Source: Pseudomonadota bacterium (GTDB lineage Bacteria > Pseudomonadota > Gammaproteobacteria > Competibacterales > Competibacteraceae). Taken from it: DNA of 64,000 nt. A program made the position numbers and the translations under genes. Of this stretch, positions 6,704-37,628 are shown piece by piece; position 1 is the stretch's first letter, and each line of letters begins with the position of its first letter. The notes beneath the pieces were generated by a model that was given only the letters and a program-made list of their open reading frames with translations, was not told the origin of the DNA and ran no database searches. The stretch is from assembly GCA_022709365.1 (NCBI GenBank), contig JAKLIY010000005.1, positions 62,001 through 126,000 on the forward strand. Direction: 5' to 3'.

Positions 6704-7741
6704 ATGGACACCCTCACTTTTACCCGCCCTGACGACTGGCATCTGCACGTCCGCGATGGAGCTGCGTTGCAGGCGGTCGTTCCGCACAGCGCCCGCCAGT
6801 TCGCCCGCGCCATCATCATGCCCAATCTGCGCCCACCGGTGACCACCACCGCGCAGGCGCTGGCTTACCGGGCGCGGATTTTGGAGGCCGTGCCGGATGG
6901 TGGGGATTTTCAGCCGTTGATGACGCTGTATCTGACTGATCAGACCCCGCCCGGCGAGATCCGCCGCGCCAGGGACTCCGGTCAGATCGTCGCCGGCAAA
7001 CTGTATCCCGCTGGCGCAACGACTAATTCTGATTCCGGGGTTACAGATATTCGCCTTATCTACCCGACGCTGGAGGCGATGCAGATGCAGAAGATGCCAT
7101 TACTGGTGCATGGCGAAGTGACCGATCCCGAGGTGGATATTTTCGACCGGGAGGCAGTGTTTATCGAACGTGTTCTGATCCCGCTGATCCGTGATTTCCC
7201 GGCCCTGAAAATCGTCATGGAGCATATCACGACCCAGAATGCGGCGGATTATGTGCGGGACGCGCCAGCCACGGTCGCAGCGACCCTCACCGCCCATCAT
7301 TTGTTGTATAACCGCAATGCCATTTTCCAAGGCGGCATCTGTCCGCATTATTACTGCCTGCCAATTCTCAAACGCGAGCGGCATCGGCAGGCGCTGCTTC
7401 AAGCGGCGACCAGTGGCAACCCCAAGTTCTTCCTCGGCACCGACAGCGCGCCCCATCCCCGCTCTGGCAAGGAAACCGCCTGTGGTTGCGCCGGCTGTTA
7501 TACCGCCTACACCGCCCTGGAACTGTATGCGGAAGCATTTGAAGTCGCTCAGGCGCTAGAGCGGCTCGAAGCCTTCGCCAGTTTTAATGGCCCGGATTTC
7601 TACGGCCTGCCGCGTAATGTCGGAACGATCACCTTGCAACGCCAACCCACGCCGGTTCCGGAATCATTCCCCTTCGGCGAGGAGCTGTTGATTCCCCTGC
7701 GAGCCGGTGAAATGCTCGGTTGGCAGATGAATTCCAGATAA
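6704..7741 (+). CDS. pyrC: Dihydroorotase
   Basis: Catalyses ring closure of carbamoyl aspartate to dihydroorotate in pyrimidine synthesis. The 345-residue protein is the E. coli PyrC type. Zinc ligands are visible as HLH (residues 13-15) in [10 protein letters not shown], the carboxylated Lys 99 in [11 protein letters not shown], His in LLVHGEVT and MEHITT, and Asp in LGTDSAPH. The last residues QMNSR follow the conserved GEMLGW and run straight into the AT-rich inserted segment. A divergent second copy of this 3' end lies at 13168-13273, so the present C terminus may have been rebuilt during insertion. A TATAAT at 6662 could be its -10 box. Confidence 0.96.
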
Positions 7742-7760
7742 AATTTATTTTAAATAAAAG

Positions 7761-7780
7761 TCCTGATTGCTATCAGGAGG
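7761..7780 (+). promoter_or_regulatory. Hairpin occluding the Shine-Dalgarno site of the giant gene
   Basis: TCCTGAT (7761-7767), loop TGCT and ATCAGGA (7772-7778) form a perfect 7-bp hairpin. The right arm contains most of AGGAGG (7775-7780), the ribosome site for the ATG at 7786. This would limit initiation unless the hairpin is melted, for example by ribosomes ending at the pyrC stop 20 bases upstream or by a regulator or temperature. Confidence 0.65.
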
Positions 7781-7785
7781 ACGTT

Positions 7786-10700
7786 ATGAGAAAAAATTTT
7801 TGGCAATTGATCGAAGCGCTGGAAAATCTGGGTGTTGAAGAAATTCTTATAAAAGAAGTGGTTGATAATATCCAGCAACATAAAGTTGATGTGATTTATT
7901 GGAATGACGATGATAAAGATCGCATCATTCTCCACGCATTTTTTCTAGCCCGAGCAAAATATTTTTTGCAAGATTTTTTAGCAATTCAACCCGATGAGCG
8001 GGAAGTCATTGAAAAATATATTCAGGAAATAGATGAACATGTCGCCAACCATCAATGGCCTACAGATATTCCAGAAGATGATCCGGTCTTGCTCAAACAA
8101 CTGTGGCGTCAAAAAAATATTGAGATCAATCTCGTAAAACAGTCTCCTGATCATGTTGCCCAAGCCGCCCATATTCTGGCTTTAACAAGCGAGAGCAACC
8201 GTATCCTCCGCATCCTACTGAAACTTCCAGTCATAACGTCTGCTTATGGGCAGTATGAACCCGTACTCACCCGTGATTTGGTTTCTGCAATTCAAAAGCA
8301 AACCAATGAGTTCACTAAAGCAGTGATTGAGGAAGAGCTACAGGGACGTTATCCGGATGCCTATAATTTTCTTACCGCATTATATGGACACCGAAATATT
8401 GCTAAGCTCGACCAGTTGATTGATTTAAAAAAGATCAGCAGTCGCGGATTTCTGAAATCCATGGTTCAAAGCAAGGATGCTTTGATAACGCTGATTGATA
8501 ATCTGGCGATTGCGAAGAATTCTTTAGGGGAAATAAATTTTATTAAAATTACAGCATCTTGGGATACTTTAAATAAACTTCGGTTTATAGCTATCCTTGA
8601 TATACATCATTCAGGGGTAAGATTTAATAGATATCAATTAAATTATTCGTTGGAATATTCTGAATTACAAATGCCACCATGGATGCAAGATAGTACTGCA
8701 GGCGAATTAAAAAGTGAAATTACTGGTAGCACAGGAGCTTATGTATTGCTTTATGATAACGCAGTCACTCCTGTATTTAATGAAAAATCCAGGAAGGAAT
8801 TATGTACACACTATATTAATATTCAGGATGACCTGATTAAACCGAACTACGATGCCCTCCAGTTAATTGTCACTCATGCTGATAAAATGACTAAAATGAC
8901 GGCGCAGGCAATTTTTTTATTGCTCGCTAAAATGGTAGAGGCTTACCAGAAAATTGTGCCTCCTGTTGAGGGGGATTTAGTACTCAATCAATATAACTTA
9001 CTCCGGCAAGAATTGGAAATTTATTGGGAAAAGTTGTCTGAAAAAGATGAATTATCGAATGATTTAAGAAGTAAAATTACCAGCCTTAAAGAGTCGCCAC
9101 TTTCTGAAATACAGAGTGTTCACTCTTTAATACGTTTTCTGCATGAAGCTGGGAATCAGGCATTAGAAAAGAAAATGATCCTAGCCCGAGCAGACATAAC
9201 CGTAACCATCGGTTATCTCGGGTCTGAAGAGATCAAAGAAATTCAATTAGCCAAATTGGATGATGCGCCAATTATAGTTAACGGATTGATCCGGCATCGG
9301 GCGATTGCCGCAATTATATCAGCTAGTCGGCAAATCCCAGCACCGATACGCGGCACGTTTGTTGTGATCAATAATCATATTACTTATAGTGTAAAACTTG
9401 GAGAACACCGTGCAGAGTTTTCTGCCAATATTGAGCATCCAGACCAAGAGGGATTTGTTCGATTACAGAGCTATCAGGGAGGTATAGAAATAGAGCAGCA
9501 GTTGCGAGGGGCTTTTGTCGAAAGGGTTCTAAAAGAAAAAGGGATGACGGTTAAGTGTGAACAAGAAGGTTTAGTCGATTCGCTGGTCAGTGGGATTCTA
9601 GATAAGGATCATGGGGCGCGGACTCATAAGCAGATTGAAGAGACTATTATATTTGTATTGCGTTTGATCGGCTCTCTTCGTGATTTAGACTATGCCATGG
9701 CGTATATTTTTTCTCAGGAAATTCTGTCGAATAGTGGCGCAAATCAGATAGATGTCAATAAAATCGATAAATTTGCAGCCTTGTTTGCCAGTATGTTTCT
9801 AGTTGAGGGCATGATCCCGTTTCCGTATGGCGGTGAAGGTATGCCGTTAGCGACCTATTGTGAGTATAACGGACCCAGGATTTTGCAGGACTTTAAGGCC
9901 TATCATTCCAATGAACAGCGGATGCTTCGCCATCGCCTTTATTTTTCGATTAACGCTTTGTTGCGCGCAGTTGAACTGCCTATTATTCAACCTGGCAAAG
10001 GCGGAGTAGGACAGGAGGTGATTGATGAATATTTTAATAAACCTTTGCGAAATGCATTAGGTCGTAGGGAATTGAAGATTAACAATTGGGGATTCATCGA
10101 GAAGAATTCTGACTATCAACCAGTTAAGGAAATTATCGGTAAGGTTATCACCCATGAAAATGAAGCATTGATGATGGCAGTTTTGTTAAAAAAGACTGAT
10201 CTGTATTTAGACTTTAGTATTATTGGCAGTGTTGACCAACTTACGCTGATGAGAGCGCAGCAAGAAATAGCGCCTAACAAATGGCTGGTCGTATATGGTT
10301 TAGCTGATGAAGAAAATCGTGCGATATTATATGCATTCAGTAAGTATTTGAAAATGCAATCAAATGGAGAATGGCTTTCGATTAACGGTCTCAGGAAGAT
10401 ATTGCGTAAGTCGAGTTATACTGCCCTTGGAAAGATTCAAATTCCTGGTTTTCAAAAAGTGGTTTCTCATCGTTTATTAATTGGACAACCGCATGAGTTG
10501 ATTAAGATTATCGGTACATCGGTTAGAGGTTTATCAGCCTCTGTTGGCGATGGATCAGTTCGTATCGGACGCATTACCTTTGACCGCAATTATTATATTA
10601 ACCGACGGGTTCACGATAGGCGCATTCTGTTAGTTCCATTTACGACTCCTGAAGATATTGAAGCGATTCGGTCTGCTGATGCAGTCCTGGTAACTAGCGG

Positions 10701-13152
10701 TGGTTTGTTAAGTCATGCTGGAGTCACTACCCGGGAATTTTCTATTCCTGCTTTGATTCTTCCACATGCCGAATGGTTTCAGTCATCAGAAGGCACTATA
10801 GTTCGTCTTGAAGAACGCTATCCGAGTGAGAAGAAGAAAAACGTGGAGGGATTTTGGGTAAGTGAATCGATAGTTTCTGAAATAGTAGAGGTACATGAAG
10901 GTGATATGATTCTGGTTTGGGCATCGCAAGGCATCGTATCGATTATGTCCATGGGTGAAGATCATCTTGAACAAGTACATAGTTTGATTCAGGGAATTGT
11001 ATTGGATAAAAACACTGCTGTTAATCTTGAATTTCAATTGGCTGGCATTCTACTGAGTATCAGTGCACAAGAGGGGTGGGAGCAGATTGCATCTGATATT
11101 ATGGGTTTGGTATTAGCTGAGGCATTATGGGATAGGCGTATTAATCCTGGTATGCGTAAACAACTTATTGATATTGTACAACACGCCTGTACTGGAATTT
11201 GGATAGACGGTAAGACTATCAAGCTTTCTGAAAAAAGTGCTGCTTATGTTAACACAATGGTGCAACAGTTAACCGGGAATGCTTTGACAGAACTCGAAGG
11301 ATTATTGTCCGAAATCGAGCACAATATATCTAAGGTTAACGTATTATGGAGAGCGCTGATTATTATTGCGGTAGCTGAGCGTCATTGGATGCAAGTTATC
11401 ACTTTAATGAGTAGTTTAAATTTATCCAATCAGCGATTACGATTAATTGAAGAGCGTATTAATAAATTGCGTTACCATCCACGAATAGCTTTACTCAGGG
11501 CATCCGTGCTTAATGAACTAGAATCCTTGTCATCAAAGAATTTGACAGAAGATGATTTGCCACGGGTTCGGCAAACCTTGCGTCGTCTTGGTCATAAGCG
11601 GGATAGTAGTAAATGCCCAAAGATTTTGCTGGTATGTACGGCTAATGTTGACCGTAGCCCTATGGCTGAATTTTTATTGAGAAAAATACTTTTTGATGAA
11701 AAAATAAGTGGTGTTGAGGTCATTTCACGTGGTGTAGCGGCGATTGAAAATAGTCTTATGTCTGAAATAGGTCAAGCTGTACTTTTATCGGAAGATGGAA
11801 TACATGCTGAAACTCACCGTAGTGGAAAGATTACAGAACTGGATATTGAAAGAGCTGACATTGTTTTGACGATGGAATGTTTTCATAGAGATTTGTTGAA
11901 AGAGAAATATCCTTATGCTATGGGTAAGATTTTCTTGCTCAGCGATTATGGGAATATCAAAGAGATTGGCGATATCAAAGACCCGGCAGGTCAGTCAGGA
12001 GACGCCTATCATCGATTAAGGCGAGAATTGCAGCTTTGCTTGACTGGCGCTTTTAAGCGTATGAAAGAAGAGGGCTTATTGGCCAAGGCGATGGTTGAAA
12101 ATTTGCGGATTAAAGCTGATGAGTTGGCCAAAGTAAAAAGACAGCGAGTTGCTGAGTCCGGTCGGATTGTTGTACCAATGGAAGATGTTGATGCCGATTT
12201 TGTCGAGTTAGTCGGTGGAAAAGGCGCTAATCTTGGGGAAATTGCACAGATTGTTAAGCAGCATGGCGCTACTATCCCGCCGGCATTGATGGTGACGACT
12301 TTTGCTTTCCAGCGGTTCCTCGAAGAGAATAGTCTGCTGGATGCCTATGCGGAGATCATAGCGGCTATCGACGCTGTTTTAGTGGCTACAGGAATTTCAT
12401 CTAAGGATCAGTATAGAAAAATTGTCGATTTATTGGAGAAAATTCGAATTTTGATTCTCCAGGGGCGTTTGGAGCCTACTATAGGAATAGGCCGTGAAAT
12501 TATGGAAGCAGTCGATAGTTATAACTTAAAAGATGCTTATCTAAGTGTGAGGTCTTCCGGTTTACAGGAAGATACTGAAGAAGCCTCTTTTGCTGGAGCA
12601 GCGGAGACTTATTTGTATGTTAGCCCTACTGAGTTGTTAGAATGTATAAAGAAAGTATGGGTGTCTTTTTGGCTGATTAGGGGAATTTTGTATCGGCATG
12701 ACCGGATTATTCAGCAAGGACCTACTAAACCGGCAGTTGTTGTGCAGAAAATGTTTCATTCACAGGTCTCTGGGGTAATATTTACCACTGACCCTGTTAG
12801 TGATAGAGATGTGATTGTGATTGAAGCGGGCTATGGGCTTGGTGAAGGAGTCGTTTCTGGATTAGTCGATGTCGATCGGTATTATGTGAATAAATTCGAT
12901 GGTTCGGTGATTAATATCCATATCGGTAAAAAAGCTTTTAAGGTTATGCAACATCCTTCAGGTAAAGGAACATATATAGAATCTGTAGATAATAGTTTGC
13001 GTGATGTTCCTTGCTTAAATGAACAGGATATTAATATTAAAATAGCTATGGCTTTAGAAGAGCATTATGCTTTGTCTCAAGATATTGAGTTTGGTATTAA
13101 TAGTGGCAAAGTGAGTATTCTGCAAACCAGACCGATCACAACGCGTGGATGA
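7786..13152 (+). CDS. Giant permuted PEP-synthase-like phosphotransfer protein with internal LMW tyrosine phosphatase domain
   Basis: 1788 residues. The start is the ATG at 7786, 5 bases after AGGAGG; an in-frame ATG at 7720 lies inside pyrC. Residues 1 to about 920 are mainly helical and unrecognised. About 935-1020 is a swivelling phosphohistidine domain: LVTSGGLLSHAGVTTRE, with His 977 in the position of the phospho-His of PEP synthase/PPDK. About 1280-1430 is a low-molecular-weight tyrosine phosphatase domain: loop CTANVDRS with Cys 1284 and Arg 1290, and the general acid in KDPAG (Asp 1399). About 1465-1788 is a PPDK-type ATP-binding domain: VGGKGANLGEI, SVRSSG (Arg 1589) and the terminal QTRPIT. 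No PEP/pyruvate TIM barrel is recognisable. No signal peptide or membrane segments are seen, so it is probably cytoplasmic. It may autophosphorylate on His 977 and pass phosphate to an unknown acceptor; this is inference. AT-rich codons suggest transfer. Confidence 0.85.
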   Translation: MRKNFWQLIEALENLGVEEILIKEVVDNIQQHKVDVIYWNDDDKDRIILHAFFLARAKYFLQDFLAIQPDEREVIEKYIQEIDEHVANHQWPTDIPEDDPVLLKQLWRQKNIEINLVKQSPDHVAQAAHILALTSESNRILRILLKLPVITSAYGQYEPVLTRDLVSAIQKQTNEFTKAVIEEELQGRYPDAYNFLTALYGHRNIAKLDQLIDLKKISSRGFLKSMVQSKDALITLIDNLAIAKNSLGEINFIKITASWDTLNKLRFIAILDIHHSGVRFNRYQLNYSLEYSELQMPPWMQDSTAGELKSEITGSTGAYVLLYDNAVTPVFNEKSRKELCTHYINIQDDLIKPNYDALQLIVTHADKMTKMTAQAIFLLLAKMVEAYQKIVPPVEGDLVLNQYNLLRQELEIYWEKLSEKDELSNDLRSKITSLKESPLSEIQSVHSLIRFLHEAGNQALEKKMILARADITVTIGYLGSEEIKEIQLAKLDDAPIIVNGLIRHRAIAAIISASRQIPAPIRGTFVVINNHITYSVKLGEHRAEFSANIEHPDQEGFVRLQSYQGGIEIEQQLRGAFVERVLKEKGMTVKCEQEGLVDSLVSGILDKDHGARTHKQIEETIIFVLRLIGSLRDLDYAMAYIFSQEILSNSGANQIDVNKIDKFAALFASMFLVEGMIPFPYGGEGMPLATYCEYNGPRILQDFKAYHSNEQRMLRHRLYFSINALLRAVELPIIQPGKGGVGQEVIDEYFNKPLRNALGRRELKINNWGFIEKNSDYQPVKEIIGKVITHENEALMMAVLLKKTDLYLDFSIIGSVDQLTLMRAQQEIAPNKWLVVYGLADEENRAILYAFSKYLKMQSNGEWLSINGLRKILRKSSYTALGKIQIPGFQKVVSHRLLIGQPHELIKIIGTSVRGLSASVGDGSVRIGRITFDRNYYINRRVHDRRILLVPFTTPEDIEAIRSADAVLVTSGGLLSHAGVTTREFSIPALILPHAEWFQSSEGTIVRLEERYPSEKKKNVEGFWVSESIVSEIVEVHEGDMILVWASQGIVSIMSMGEDHLEQVHSLIQGIVLDKNTAVNLEFQLAGILLSISAQEGWEQIASDIMGLVLAEALWDRRINPGMRKQLIDIVQHACTGIWIDGKTIKLSEKSAAYVNTMVQQLTGNALTELEGLLSEIEHNISKVNVLWRALIIIAVAERHWMQVITLMSSLNLSNQRLRLIEERINKLRYHPRIALLRASVLNELESLSSKNLTEDDLPRVRQTLRRLGHKRDSSKCPKILLVCTANVDRSPMAEFLLRKILFDEKISGVEVISRGVAAIENSLMSEIGQAVLLSEDGIHAETHRSGKITELDIERADIVLTMECFHRDLLKEKYPYAMGKIFLLSDYGNIKEIGDIKDPAGQSGDAYHRLRRELQLCLTGAFKRMKEEGLLAKAMVENLRIKADELAKVKRQRVAESGRIVVPMEDVDADFVELVGGKGANLGEIAQIVKQHGATIPPALMVTTFAFQRFLEENSLLDAYAEIIAAIDAVLVATGISSKDQYRKIVDLLEKIRILILQGRLEPTIGIGREIMEAVDSYNLKDAYLSVRSSGLQEDTEEASFAGAAETYLYVSPTELLECIKKVWVSFWLIRGILYRHDRIIQQGPTKPAVVVQKMFHSQVSGVIFTTDPVSDRDVIVIEAGYGLGEGVVSGLVDVDRYYVNKFDGSVINIHIGKKAFKVMQHPSGKGTYIESVDNSLRDVPCLNEQDINIKIAMALEEHYALSQDIEFGINSGKVSILQTRPITTRG

Positions 13153-24325: not shown

Positions 24326-26161
24326 ATGATACAAGTCTGTCCCATTCAAAAGGGGATTGTTGTGGGTGAAGACCTGTCTCGCAAAGAAGGGGAGGCACAA
24401 CGTGCTGTTTTGCGCAGGTGCGAATCCGAGTCGATGCGTAACCTCAGGATGTTCGACGCGATGCCGAATGGCCCCGAAGCTAAGCGTCTTCTGCATGAGC
24501 TTCCACCTGAAGAACGCAAGCGCCTGAATGAGGTAATGAAGCGCATCAACGCCACCTTGCAGGCACAAATGTCAAACGGGGCTGGGCTTCCAGCCGACCA
24601 GCTCGTTCGCTTCTTCCTGGCTGAGTACAACGACAGGCTGCGTCGCTTCGGTGCCCAGTCGATGCCGACCAGCTTCAACATCGCCGAACCGTTTTTTGTC
24701 TTCCCTCGGGGGATTCCCGCATTCCTGCTACGAGACGAGCAGGATGTCTCCTTCAGCTTCACCGACTTTCTCGATTTTGTGACTAGCAGCAATGCACCAG
24801 CACAGGACATGCGGCAAGGCTACACGTTGAAGGAAGGGGTCATTTACAACTTCAACTCTTCAGATGAAATTGGATCCCTCCTGCTGGCGACTGAAAGCGG
24901 CTGTGCTTACGGGTTTTCCGCCGCTGGCATGGTTCGTGTCGGTGACGAACTGTCGATTATGATGGAGTGCGGTGAGCAGCTAACGCCTGAATTGGCAGCG
25001 GAGATCGAGGTTCATGTCGATTGGCCCGATGAGGTAATGATGGCGGGTGCGTCGAACCATTCGATTGATGTAAGCGAGTCCAAGCGAAAAGCGGTCAAGA
25101 TCGGATCAAGCGGCCTTTTTCGGGTCATCCTGTTCATCCGTTTCAACCTTAAGGATGAGCAGATCGACGGCTGGATCTCATACCGTGATATGGGCGACAT
25201 GTTCGATGTTGTCACCAACCTGCGCGAGACCATGTTCAAGCTGCCGCAAGAAGATGAAGATATTCTTGTTAAGCATGCAGAGAGTTACATAGATGATCGC
25301 CCGGTGCTTGTGGAACTCGCCAAGACCCTCACGTTGCTACCCGCCTACTTGGATGCCAAGGTTGGCTCCATTACGTTGAAAAATGTTCGTACCCAGTTGG
25401 GAACATGCCAGTCGTCGCTGAAGGTTAAGCGCACCCTCGCAAAGGCACAGTCGAATAGTCGCGTGATGTTCCGTAAGATCACGTCGATTGAGATCAAACG
25501 CCCGGCACTCATCTCGACGATGAGCGGGCGAGCCTATGTGGCTCCCCGCTACCAAATCCCTATCACGGGCTACTGGCGCAAATTCGCGGATGACTTGCGC
25601 GTCGGTCACGATGAGAGTGGCAACGAGGTTCAGGGGCGGACTTGGGTGCGAGCGCATATCCGCCACAAGGATAAGCCAGCGGCACAGGATCAGCCCAAAA
25701 TCGTCTATGTGAAGGAGTCACTCGCAAAAGCCAAGGCGCTACTTGCAAAGTACCAAAGCGGCCTCATAGGATCCCCTTCAACGCCTGCGCCAACAGCTAG
25801 CGCTAGCCATGTAGCCACATCCGTCGTATCTCCTACGGCTGAAGTTGAGTCGTCCGGCGAGAACGGTGCCTACATCTACGTGATGCGCTGCCCGGCTCAT
25901 GGCACCGACATCTACAAGGTTGGATTTACCACCCGCGACCCTGAGGAGCGTGCTGCGGAACTCTCGCGAAACACTTCAACGCCTGCTGTCTTCCTGGTCG
26001 TTCAGGCATGGGCAGTTACCACAGGTCTTGCGGCTGAGTCAGCAGCCCACCAAGCGCTTGCAGCCCTGCGTATTGCTGGGAATCGCGAGTTTTTCCTTGC
26101 TAAGTACCAGCGGCTGCGTGAGATCATCGAAGGGGCGATCGCTCCCTGGCTTATCTTATGA
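24326..26161 (+). CDS. Large protein with C-terminal T5orf172 (GIY-YIG-like) domain
   Basis: 611 residues. The C-terminal 90 residues (GAYIYVMRCPAHGTDIYKVGFT, TRDPEERAAELSR, and an HQAL..NREFF end) match the T5orf172/Mug113 branch of the GIY-YIG nuclease superfamily: the YIY and YKVGFT pair replaces GIY and YIG, and Arg and Glu positions are retained. Residues 1-420 are an unrecognised soluble region; about 480-510 is a Ser/Thr/Ala-rich linker. GC content is lower than in neighbours. It stands alone beside an integrase remnant and lacks phage neighbours. It could be a nuclease in mobile-element biology or defence; this is inference. The start is uncertain; ATG 24326 is used, and GTG 24362 has a better upstream AAAAGGGGA. 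Confidence 0.75.
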   Translation: MIQVCPIQKGIVVGEDLSRKEGEAQRAVLRRCESESMRNLRMFDAMPNGPEAKRLLHELPPEERKRLNEVMKRINATLQAQMSNGAGLPADQLVRFFLAEYNDRLRRFGAQSMPTSFNIAEPFFVFPRGIPAFLLRDEQDVSFSFTDFLDFVTSSNAPAQDMRQGYTLKEGVIYNFNSSDEIGSLLLATESGCAYGFSAAGMVRVGDELSIMMECGEQLTPELAAEIEVHVDWPDEVMMAGASNHSIDVSESKRKAVKIGSSGLFRVILFIRFNLKDEQIDGWISYRDMGDMFDVVTNLRETMFKLPQEDEDILVKHAESYIDDRPVLVELAKTLTLLPAYLDAKVGSITLKNVRTQLGTCQSSLKVKRTLAKAQSNSRVMFRKITSIEIKRPALISTMSGRAYVAPRYQIPITGYWRKFADDLRVGHDESGNEVQGRTWVRAHIRHKDKPAAQDQPKIVYVKESLAKAKALLAKYQSGLIGSPSTPAPTASASHVATSVVSPTAEVESSGENGAYIYVMRCPAHGTDIYKVGFTTRDPEERAAELSRNTSTPAVFLVVQAWAVTTGLAAESAAHQALAALRIAGNREFFLAKYQRLREIIEGAIAPWLIL

Positions 26162-33447: not shown

Positions 33448-33849
33448 ATGCCCATGCATGTCTGTAACGGCGCGACGTTGAAATGCATGTTCGCCGTGCC
33501 TCCGGGGATCAGCACCCTCATCGTGCTCCCACAAAACCGCGTGATGACCAGCAATCAGCCGGCGGCTAATATCATGGACTCTAAACCCATGGTCAATATT
33601 CCGCCCTTTGGGATGTGCATATCGCCGACCAACCCGGCCTTCGTGTCGGCGACTGCGGCAGCGATGGGAGTACCGACGCCCGTGCCCTGTACGCCAGTCA
33701 CGCCAGCGCCCTGGATGCCGGGATCACCGACCGTGTTGCTGGGCAACATGCCGGCGTTGAACAATACTTCGGTCCTGGCGTGCGCTTTGGGCGCTCCTGG
33801 TTGCATCACTATCCTCGTACCGGGCCAGTTCACCGAACAAATTCCTTGA
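33448..33849 (+). CDS. PAAR-like protein, DUF4280 family
   Basis: A 133-residue protein: MPMHVCNGATLKCMF, NRVMTSNQPAANIMDSKPM, VPCTPVTPAPWMPGSPTVLLGN and MPALNNTSVL are hallmarks of the DUF4280 PAAR-like family. PAAR proteins cap the VgrG spike of type VI secretion systems. The Cys-rich, Pro-rich composition fits the metal-containing beta-cone. No vgrG, hcp or effector gene is next to it, so it is an orphan here. GAGGTG precedes the ATG. Its last 20 bases overlap the 3' end of convergent hrpB. Confidence 0.87.
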   Translation: MPMHVCNGATLKCMFAVPPGISTLIVLPQNRVMTSNQPAANIMDSKPMVNIPPFGMCISPTNPAFVSATAAAMGVPTPVPCTPVTPAPWMPGSPTVLLGNMPALNNTSVLACALGAPGCITILVPGQFTEQIP

Positions 33850-36385: not shown

Positions 36386-36498
36386 GATACAGTGGAGTTA
36401 AGTTGCAGCGCGGCGTGCATTGATGAACTGTTTTGGTTATGGTTTAGTCAATCTTAGTGTGTGCATCATACGCCAGTCCCCAGGGGAGGATAACCAGG

Positions 36499-36855
36499 AT
36501 GAGCATCTTGACCGATCTACTGACCCAACCTGGCGTCGTCGCCGCCGGCGAATACGCTTATCGGGGAGACCGGTTTTCCTATCGGGGCGCTCTGAGCGAA
36601 GAACACGCCCGGATGGCGTCTATCATGTGTCGCGCCACCACCATGGGCGCGAACATGGAAGGCGCGATGTTCAATTCCATCCATCCCGGCAATGGTCTGC
36701 ACCCGCCGCGCGGCTGGCTGGTGCGGGGTCCGGTCCACACCGTCTGCGTGATGGCCAATGTCTTCTGCCTGCTTGACCATACCCAGGGTTCGGTCAGCCA
36801 CATTGTCGGATTGATGCGCCAAAATCTGGGCGATGTCCCCCATGAGTTAATCTGA
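36499..36855 (+). CDS. DUF2173-family protein, copy 1
   Basis: 118 residues (MSILTDLLTQPGVVAAGEYAYRGDRFSYRG..ARMASIMCRATTMGANMEG..GWLVRGPVHTVCVMANVFCLLD). I recognise this as DUF2173-like, a small soluble family seen in sulfur oxidisers and related proteobacteria whose alpha/beta layout resembles roadblock/LC7 proteins. The fold comparison is inference. GGGGAGGATAACCAGG precedes the ATG. First of three tandem paralogues, with 36 bases to the next. Confidence 0.75.
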   Translation: MSILTDLLTQPGVVAAGEYAYRGDRFSYRGALSEEHARMASIMCRATTMGANMEGAMFNSIHPGNGLHPPRGWLVRGPVHTVCVMANVFCLLDHTQGSVSHIVGLMRQNLGDVPHELI

Positions 36856-36891
36856 ATTCACCGCCTGCCTACCGGAAGAAGGAGACCGCTG

Positions 36892-37293
36892 ATGGCGATA
36901 CTCGATGAATTGATGCGGCTGCCAGGAGCAATGGCGGCTTTTGAATTTCGCGGCAGCGGCGAACTACTGGAACACCGCATCGCCTACCCTGACCGGATCA
37001 ACCCCGCTACCCTCGACCTGCTCGCGCACATGTGCTCGGCCAATATGAGCATCGCCGCCATGCAGGCCCGGGGTTGGGAGCAAGTCACCGCCATGTCGGG
37101 GTTCTACCCGGTCCAGGAGTTCACTTTGATCGGCTTCGACTGGTCCGTGGTGGTCAGCGCCCTGCGCCGGGAGCAGCATAAACGGGTGGGTCAATCCAAC
37201 CTGCCCCCCTTCACCGGCGTCGTGCTGGCCAATGAAAGCGCCGACTACGAAGCGGCGTTCGCCCTTCTGGAACACCCGGAGCCGGCCGCATGA
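36892..37293 (+). CDS. DUF2173-family protein, copy 2
   Basis: 133 residues with the same opening (MAILDELMRLPGAMAAFEFRG..LLEHRIAYPD), the same central helix (LLAHMCSANMSIAAMQA) and GFDWSVVVS strand as copy 1, but the GW..RGP segment is replaced and it has a 25-residue C-terminal extension. AAGAAGGAGA precedes the ATG. The stop overlaps the start of copy 3 (ATGA), showing translational coupling. Confidence 0.75.
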   Translation: MAILDELMRLPGAMAAFEFRGSGELLEHRIAYPDRINPATLDLLAHMCSANMSIAAMQARGWEQVTAMSGFYPVQEFTLIGFDWSVVVSALRREQHKRVGQSNLPPFTGVVLANESADYEAAFALLEHPEPAA

Positions 37294-37628
37294 GTATGAT
37301 CAGGCGTCTGCTGGCTTTGGACGGGGTCAACGTGGTCTGTCATTTCCGCGATGATGGCAGCTTTGTGGAAGGCTATGGATTAATGAGCCACGATGACATG
37401 GTCCGACTGGCACACTTCGCGCATGACTACCGACGCATGATCCAGGGCAATGCTGATCAACTGGCGATGTTCACCGGTATGCGCGGTTGGACGCCACCAC
37501 GCGGCTGGATCATTCACGGCGCGACGCAGGTAGTCTGTGGCGTCGGTAATCTGGTCTGCGTGGTAGACCGCACTGGGGTGCCACTGAACGATATTCTGCT
37601 CGAACTGCGCGAAGTTTCGCATTGGTAG
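37290..37628 (+). CDS. DUF2173-family protein, copy 3
   Basis: 112 residues (MSMIRRLLALDGVNVVCHFRDDGSFVEGYG..GMRGWTPPRGWIIHGATQVVCGVGNLVCVVD). The GWTPPRGW-IHG-TQVVC stretch matches the RGWLVRGPVHTVCV part of copy 1. Four-base overlap with copy 2. The three products probably form a hetero-oligomer; this is inferred from coupling and paralogy. No terminator with a T-run was seen downstream. Confidence 0.75.
   Translation: MSMIRRLLALDGVNVVCHFRDDGSFVEGYGLMSHDDMVRLAHFAHDYRRMIQGNADQLAMFTGMRGWTPPRGWIIHGATQVVCGVGNLVCVVDRTGVPLNDILLELREVSHW

Follow-up and report, generated by a model that had tools for sequence, protein, structure and literature searches.

Roadblock proteins have been characterised as small-GTPase partners. 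MglB, found in Myxococcus and Thermus, is the Roadblock GAP of MglA, and the eukaryotic Ragulator (LAMTOR) complex, a scaffold for Rag GTPases, brings several non-identical roadblock chains together. The family PF09941 (DUF2173) has no assigned function, and is listed in COG as a Roadblock/LC7 domain (COG4831). In actinobacteria, CvnB is an example of bacterial roadblock proteins encoded within conserved gene sets (PMC13343842; PMC4316618). In these sets, the conservons, the roadblock gene sits next to genes for a kinase and a Ras-like GTPase. In this study, three tandem DUF2173 genes were analyzed in a 64,000-nt stretch of Competibacteraceae DNA (hereafter the window). The trio differs from each of these systems: it consists of three diverged paralogues, whereas MglB is one protein; no partner comparable to the Rag GTPases was seen for it; and it has neither the kinase nor the Ras-like GTPase of the conservons. 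No ordered three-paralogue DUF2173 set, and no account of its distribution, was found in the published literature that we searched.

The genes are tightly packed (Table 1), with 36 nt between copies 1 and 2, and they are the only DUF2173 genes in the window's own genome. The first-pass annotation, made from the sequence alone, had described three coupled DUF2173 genes. This was confirmed, as all three are open reading frames on the forward strand and their products are members of PF09941 by its curated gathering cut-off of 26.1 bits. The four-base overlap said to join copies 2 and 3 was also found, in the form of an ATGA. The three copies share 24, 23, and 20 identical residues per 106 aligned columns in pairwise comparison. 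Upstream of the first gene, the TGCATT and TATGGT blocks rank with the best conserved columns among 13 aligned upstream regions (the window and L033-L044), the spacer being shorter in L042. This putative element is promoter-like, and it was absent from the list of a consensus promoter scan.

Table 1. The DUF2173 locus; positions are those of the window.
Feature	Position	Strand	Evidence
DUF2173 copy 1, 118 aa	36499..36855	+	PF09941 E 5.8e-32, 110.6 bits; copy-1 clade support 90
DUF2173 copy 2, 133 aa	36892..37293	+	PF09941 E 6.5e-27, 94.4 bits; copy-2 clade support 97
DUF2173 copy 3, 112 aa	37290..37628	+	PF09941 E 2.3e-32, 111.9 bits; copy-3 clade support 97
ATGA overlap (copy 2 stop and copy 3 start)	37290..37293	+	Sequence
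Putative promoter-like element TGCATT-N16-TATGGT, 5' of gene 1	36416..36443	+	Upstream alignment; inference only

Several other features of the window were recorded. The open reading frame at 7720-13152 (1810 aa) contains, in order, PEP-utilising mobile, low-molecular-weight phosphotyrosine phosphatase, and PPDK N-terminal domains, a combination that is unusual to our knowledge. The 611-aa frame at 24326-26161 ends in a C-terminal T5orf172/MUG113 (GIY-YIG-like) domain, and its first 500 residues had no Pfam match at E <= 0.001. A DUF4280 protein, which we take to be PAAR-like, is encoded at 33448-33849 and may be part of a secretion or phage-tail-like system.

The suggestion that the trio might be roadblock-like proved right with respect to the fold. 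An AlphaFold2 model of copy 3, built from 39 aligned sequences (pLDDT 88.2, pTM 0.82), shows a helix at residues 3-8, strands at 13-19 and 25-30, a helix at 34-62, strands at 73-76, 80-85, and 88-93, and a final helix at 99-110. This a-b-b-a-b-b-b-a order is that of the Roadblock/LC7 fold, which is thus predicted for copy 3 by the model; copies 1 and 2 were assigned by family membership. All 49 Foldseek matches in the PDB at E <= 0.001 were MglB, roadblock, Ragulator, or dynein light chain proteins or their complexes. In VIA comparisons, the model reached Z scores of 15.1 over 104 residues with Roadblock 3kye, 14.7 with an Asgard roadblock, 14.7 with the Ragulator p14 chain 5y3a_B, and 12.9 with MglA-bound MglB (6h5b_C; rmsd 2.1, 104 residues, 18% identity). 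At the sequence level, PF03259 (Robl_LC7) was not matched by any of the three proteins at E <= 5, and a PDB sequence search gave only chance-level matches (best E 0.73).

The trio is a stable unit in the genomes that carry it. The window's family was covered by 37 genomes: three DUF2173 matches occur in 29 (spread over two contigs in G002) and none in 8. DUF2173 is present in 46 genomes of an unselected sample of 369 gammaproteobacterial genomes, 39 of them with exactly three copies. The other carriers have six copies (G056, two trios), four pieces on two contigs (G389), or one or two copies (G098, G099, G232, G315, and G335). The two trios of G056, a single-contig genome, are L074 and L075, the latter being much diverged. 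Within the genome collection, 12 loci had 66-88% identity to copy 2, and all but two of them were named Candidatus Contendobacter or Competibacteraceae. A Competibacteraceae-type trio (copy 2 identity 79%) was seen at L040, on a contig titled Synechococcaceae cyanobacterium SM1_2_3, which is probably a mislabelled or mixed MAG. In a wider phylum survey DUF2173 was found in 1 of 398 genomes, the window's own, and the rows listed were all of the same class, so this survey says little on other classes. A tblastn search of plasmids with copy 3 gave no match, and nothing was matched in PADLOC or PHROGs.

A DUF2173 tree was built from 130 rows of 45 loci, 42 of them trios, after eight near-duplicate Competibacteraceae loci were dropped. 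The first, second, and third copies of the 42 trios formed three separate, well supported clades (Table 1). Each copy label required a single change on the tree, compared with a mean of 35.9 after shuffling, and none of 500 shuffles gave so low a value. The order 1-2-3 was identical in all 42 trios, the gap between copies 2 and 3 was <=0 in 12 and <=30 nt in 37 of them, and the distance between genes 1 and 2 ranged from 18 to 204 nt. Across 50 trio loci, mean identity was 55-60% between type-A copies in the same position and 20-26% between copies within one genome. The DUF2173 set is an ancient, ordered, co-inherited trio of paralogues; carriage of exactly three copies together with the three copy clades argues against local triplication, the first reading of the locus having spoken of a triplication. 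Its recurrence in the same order in many families also makes the trio more than a chance arrangement. A second version of the trio, type B (L076, L086, L091, L095, L111, and L112), splits off in the tree, and none of the 42 trios combines copies of type A with copies of type B. All three type B copies stand apart from type A. Two relatives, G005 from the same genus as the window and G028 from its family, carry type B only, in place of type A, so the trio has been exchanged as a block.

The divergence of the copies can also be seen in individual residues. Copy 2 had been said to lack an RGW segment that copies 1 and 3 keep. This holds at the homologous place before strand 3, where copies 1 and 3 read P-P-R-G-W and copy 2 reads Y-P-V-Q-E-F, but copy 2 has an RGW of its own in helix 2 (residues 60-62), with G61 and W62 invariant in all 44 type-A copy-2 rows. 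In copy 1, neither G72 nor W73 varies among the 44 type-A rows; copy 3 has an invariant W73, and its G72 is kept in at least 90% of rows. According to the alignment, strands 4 and 5 of copy 2 are separated by an insert of Competibacteraceae type.

The trio is strongly enriched in sulfur oxidisers. Of the 46 DUF2173 carriers in the 369-genome sample, 42 have soxB (called at E <= 1e-100), compared with 107 of the 323 genomes without DUF2173; the odds ratio is 21, with a Fisher p of 1.9e-14. Two of the four carriers without soxB (G092 and G294) have dsrA and the other two are Competibacteraceae, so that every carrier outside this family (44/44) has soxB or dsrA. The link is one-way, since 107 genomes have soxB without DUF2173: carriage nearly implies sulfur oxidation, the reverse does not hold, and the window's family is an exception. 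Both genes were also looked for in 80 chosen genomes, 40 with and 40 without the trio. Outside the window's family, soxB was present in 35 of 37 carriers, the misses being G092 and G294, compared with 12 of 40 non-carriers. dsrA exceeded the cut-off in 11 of 40 non-carriers. Among the carriers, it did so in 26 of the 33 type-A genomes from outside the family, in none of the 4 with type B, and in none of the 3 belonging to the family. soxB is also present in all five one- or two-copy carriers and in G037, of the sister family. In Competibacteraceae, soxB was found in 0 of 37 genomes, and the 4 genomes searched for dsrA and DsrE2 yielded neither, with no dsrA match in G000 and weak matches below the cut-off in the rest; soxB, dsrA, and DsrE2 were all looked for in the window's own genome and none was found. 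FCSD (PF09242) was rejected as a sulfur link of the family, for which it is suggestive at best: of the family's 29 trio carriers 10 have it, none of the 8 remaining genomes does, and it is missing from the window's genome. Methanosarcina acetivorans, which is not known to be a sulfur oxidiser, carries DUF2173 as well (control). The single paper found to name DUF2173 reports a DUF2173 membrane protein that is upregulated on sulfur in two Sulfolobaceae, by 99-fold and 32-fold (PMC11323534).

The gene neighbourhoods gave no functional hint, because only generic genes cluster there. ORF clustering around 45 loci revealed no conserved neighbour and none linking the trio to sulfur genes, and type B and single-copy loci had equally generic surroundings. 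The neighbours recognised by eye are what we take to be lptFG, an RDD protein gene, pepA, valS, pcnB, and pan genes. The link to sulfur oxidisers, in which a neighbourhood survey had been proposed as a check, is strong from carriage to soxB or dsrA but not in the converse direction, and the window's family is an exception.

Such generic housekeeping neighbours would also suit a trio that is a phylogenetic passenger, that is, a vertically inherited housekeeping or stress module of certain gammaproteobacterial clades rich in sulfur oxidisers, with sulfur being incidental. The window's family, in which soxB and, where tested, dsrA were not detected, points in the same direction, as 29 of its 37 genomes keep the trio. 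However, the association is complete among the sampled carriers outside that family and extends to G037, and soxB is found even in all the one- and two-copy carriers, of which those included in the tree fall outside the three trio clades. Shared ancestry was also considered with a RecA tree. It covers 75 of the 80 chosen genomes, the other five being dropped as their recA match was absent or below the cut-off. On the best tree, a dependent model of trio and sox/dsr was preferred over an independent one (LR 24.7, 4 df, p 6e-5), the p value being approximate since this tree was used regardless of support and the sample was of case-control type. The RecA tree is poorly resolved, so its supported branches yielded only 2 independent pairs, a number that gives no power and does not exclude shared ancestry. 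We consider the passenger explanation doubtful, at perhaps the weight of a serious minority view.

The trio might instead be an MglB-like regulator, acting as GAP or GEF of a Ras-like small GTPase whose gene lies elsewhere in the genome. MglA-bound MglB and chains of Ragulator are indeed among the closest solved folds, and heteromeric roadblock complexes regulating small GTPases have been described (PMC9481161). However, when 55 trio genomes were searched with PF00025, a full-length match in a short frame (165-183 aa) was found only in G085, G167, and G400. The PF00025 search of the other 52, the window's genome included, gave no small-GTPase-sized match: where anything matched at all, the match was partial or fell in a longer frame, and the longer frames, judging from their length, may be those of IF-2, Der, and similar proteins. 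In addition, the listed neighbourhoods showed no recognisable GTPase gene next to the trio. As just 3 of the 55 genomes have a stand-alone GTPase of this family, an MglB-like role is unlikely, a partner outside PF00025 being possible, and a regulatory complex in the MglB sense would be missing its customary partner.

Three independent homodimers merely sharing an operon, as the homodimeric state of several solved relatives in their structure titles (Asgard Roadblock2 and 3, MglB) might suggest, are improbable on the indirect grounds that the genes nearly always occur as fixed-order threes, with one or two copies in only 5 of 46 carriers, and that type A and type B copies remain unmixed in the 42 trios of the tree.

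Taken together, a GTPase-free scaffold or sensor fits our data best. The three Roadblock/LC7-fold subunits would not be interchangeable and would work as one set, most likely assembling through roadblock-type dimer surfaces into a hetero-oligomer. This would be a small non-enzymatic scaffold or sensor, kept by lineages that oxidise inorganic sulfur and probably acting without a dedicated Ras-like GTPase, unlike the usual roadblock role. We infer that the subunits assemble physically, that they act as a scaffold or sensor, and that this role is tied to sulfur metabolism, and we put the probability of an obligate three-part roadblock hetero-oligomer of sulfur-oxidising lineages at roughly one half. 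A hetero-oligomer had already been suggested in the first-pass annotation, and the fixed order of the trio across many families is as expected for one; the two-copy model failed, as copies 1 and 2 fused by reading through the intervening stop gave a pLDDT of 45.3 and a pTM of 0.36, which is neutral on contact. Competibacteraceae hold the trio though they are without sox and, where tested, dsr.

The conserved cysteines are split between the subunits. In the 50 trio loci, Cys44 of copy 1 is present in 50, Cys83 in 44 (all 44 of type A), and Cys90 in 46. A helix-2 cysteine occurs in 50 copy-1, 46 copy-2, and 6 copy-3 proteins, the last being type B alone, and cysteines in strands 4 and 5 occur in 44 and 46 copy-1 proteins, 46 and 46 copy-3 proteins, and no copy-2 protein. 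Helix-2 cysteines are thus shared by copies 1 and 2, and strand-4 and strand-5 cysteines by copies 1 and 3. This split gave rise to a far more speculative reading, in which the roadblock complex would sense sulfur chemistry directly, with persulfide or thiol chemistry on these cysteines switching the assembly of the three-subunit scaffold without a GTPase. Buried strand cysteines are common, so the split is a mere lead, and direct sensing of this kind seems a long shot.

The association already offers a handle for annotation, as DUF2173 outside Competibacteraceae goes with soxB or dsrA in all sampled carriers. The trio would also be a clean target for gene removal. A widespread bacterial set of three distinct roadblock chains that works without a small GTPase and is nearly confined to sulfur oxidisers among the sampled Gammaproteobacteria would be an unstudied component of a major element cycle.
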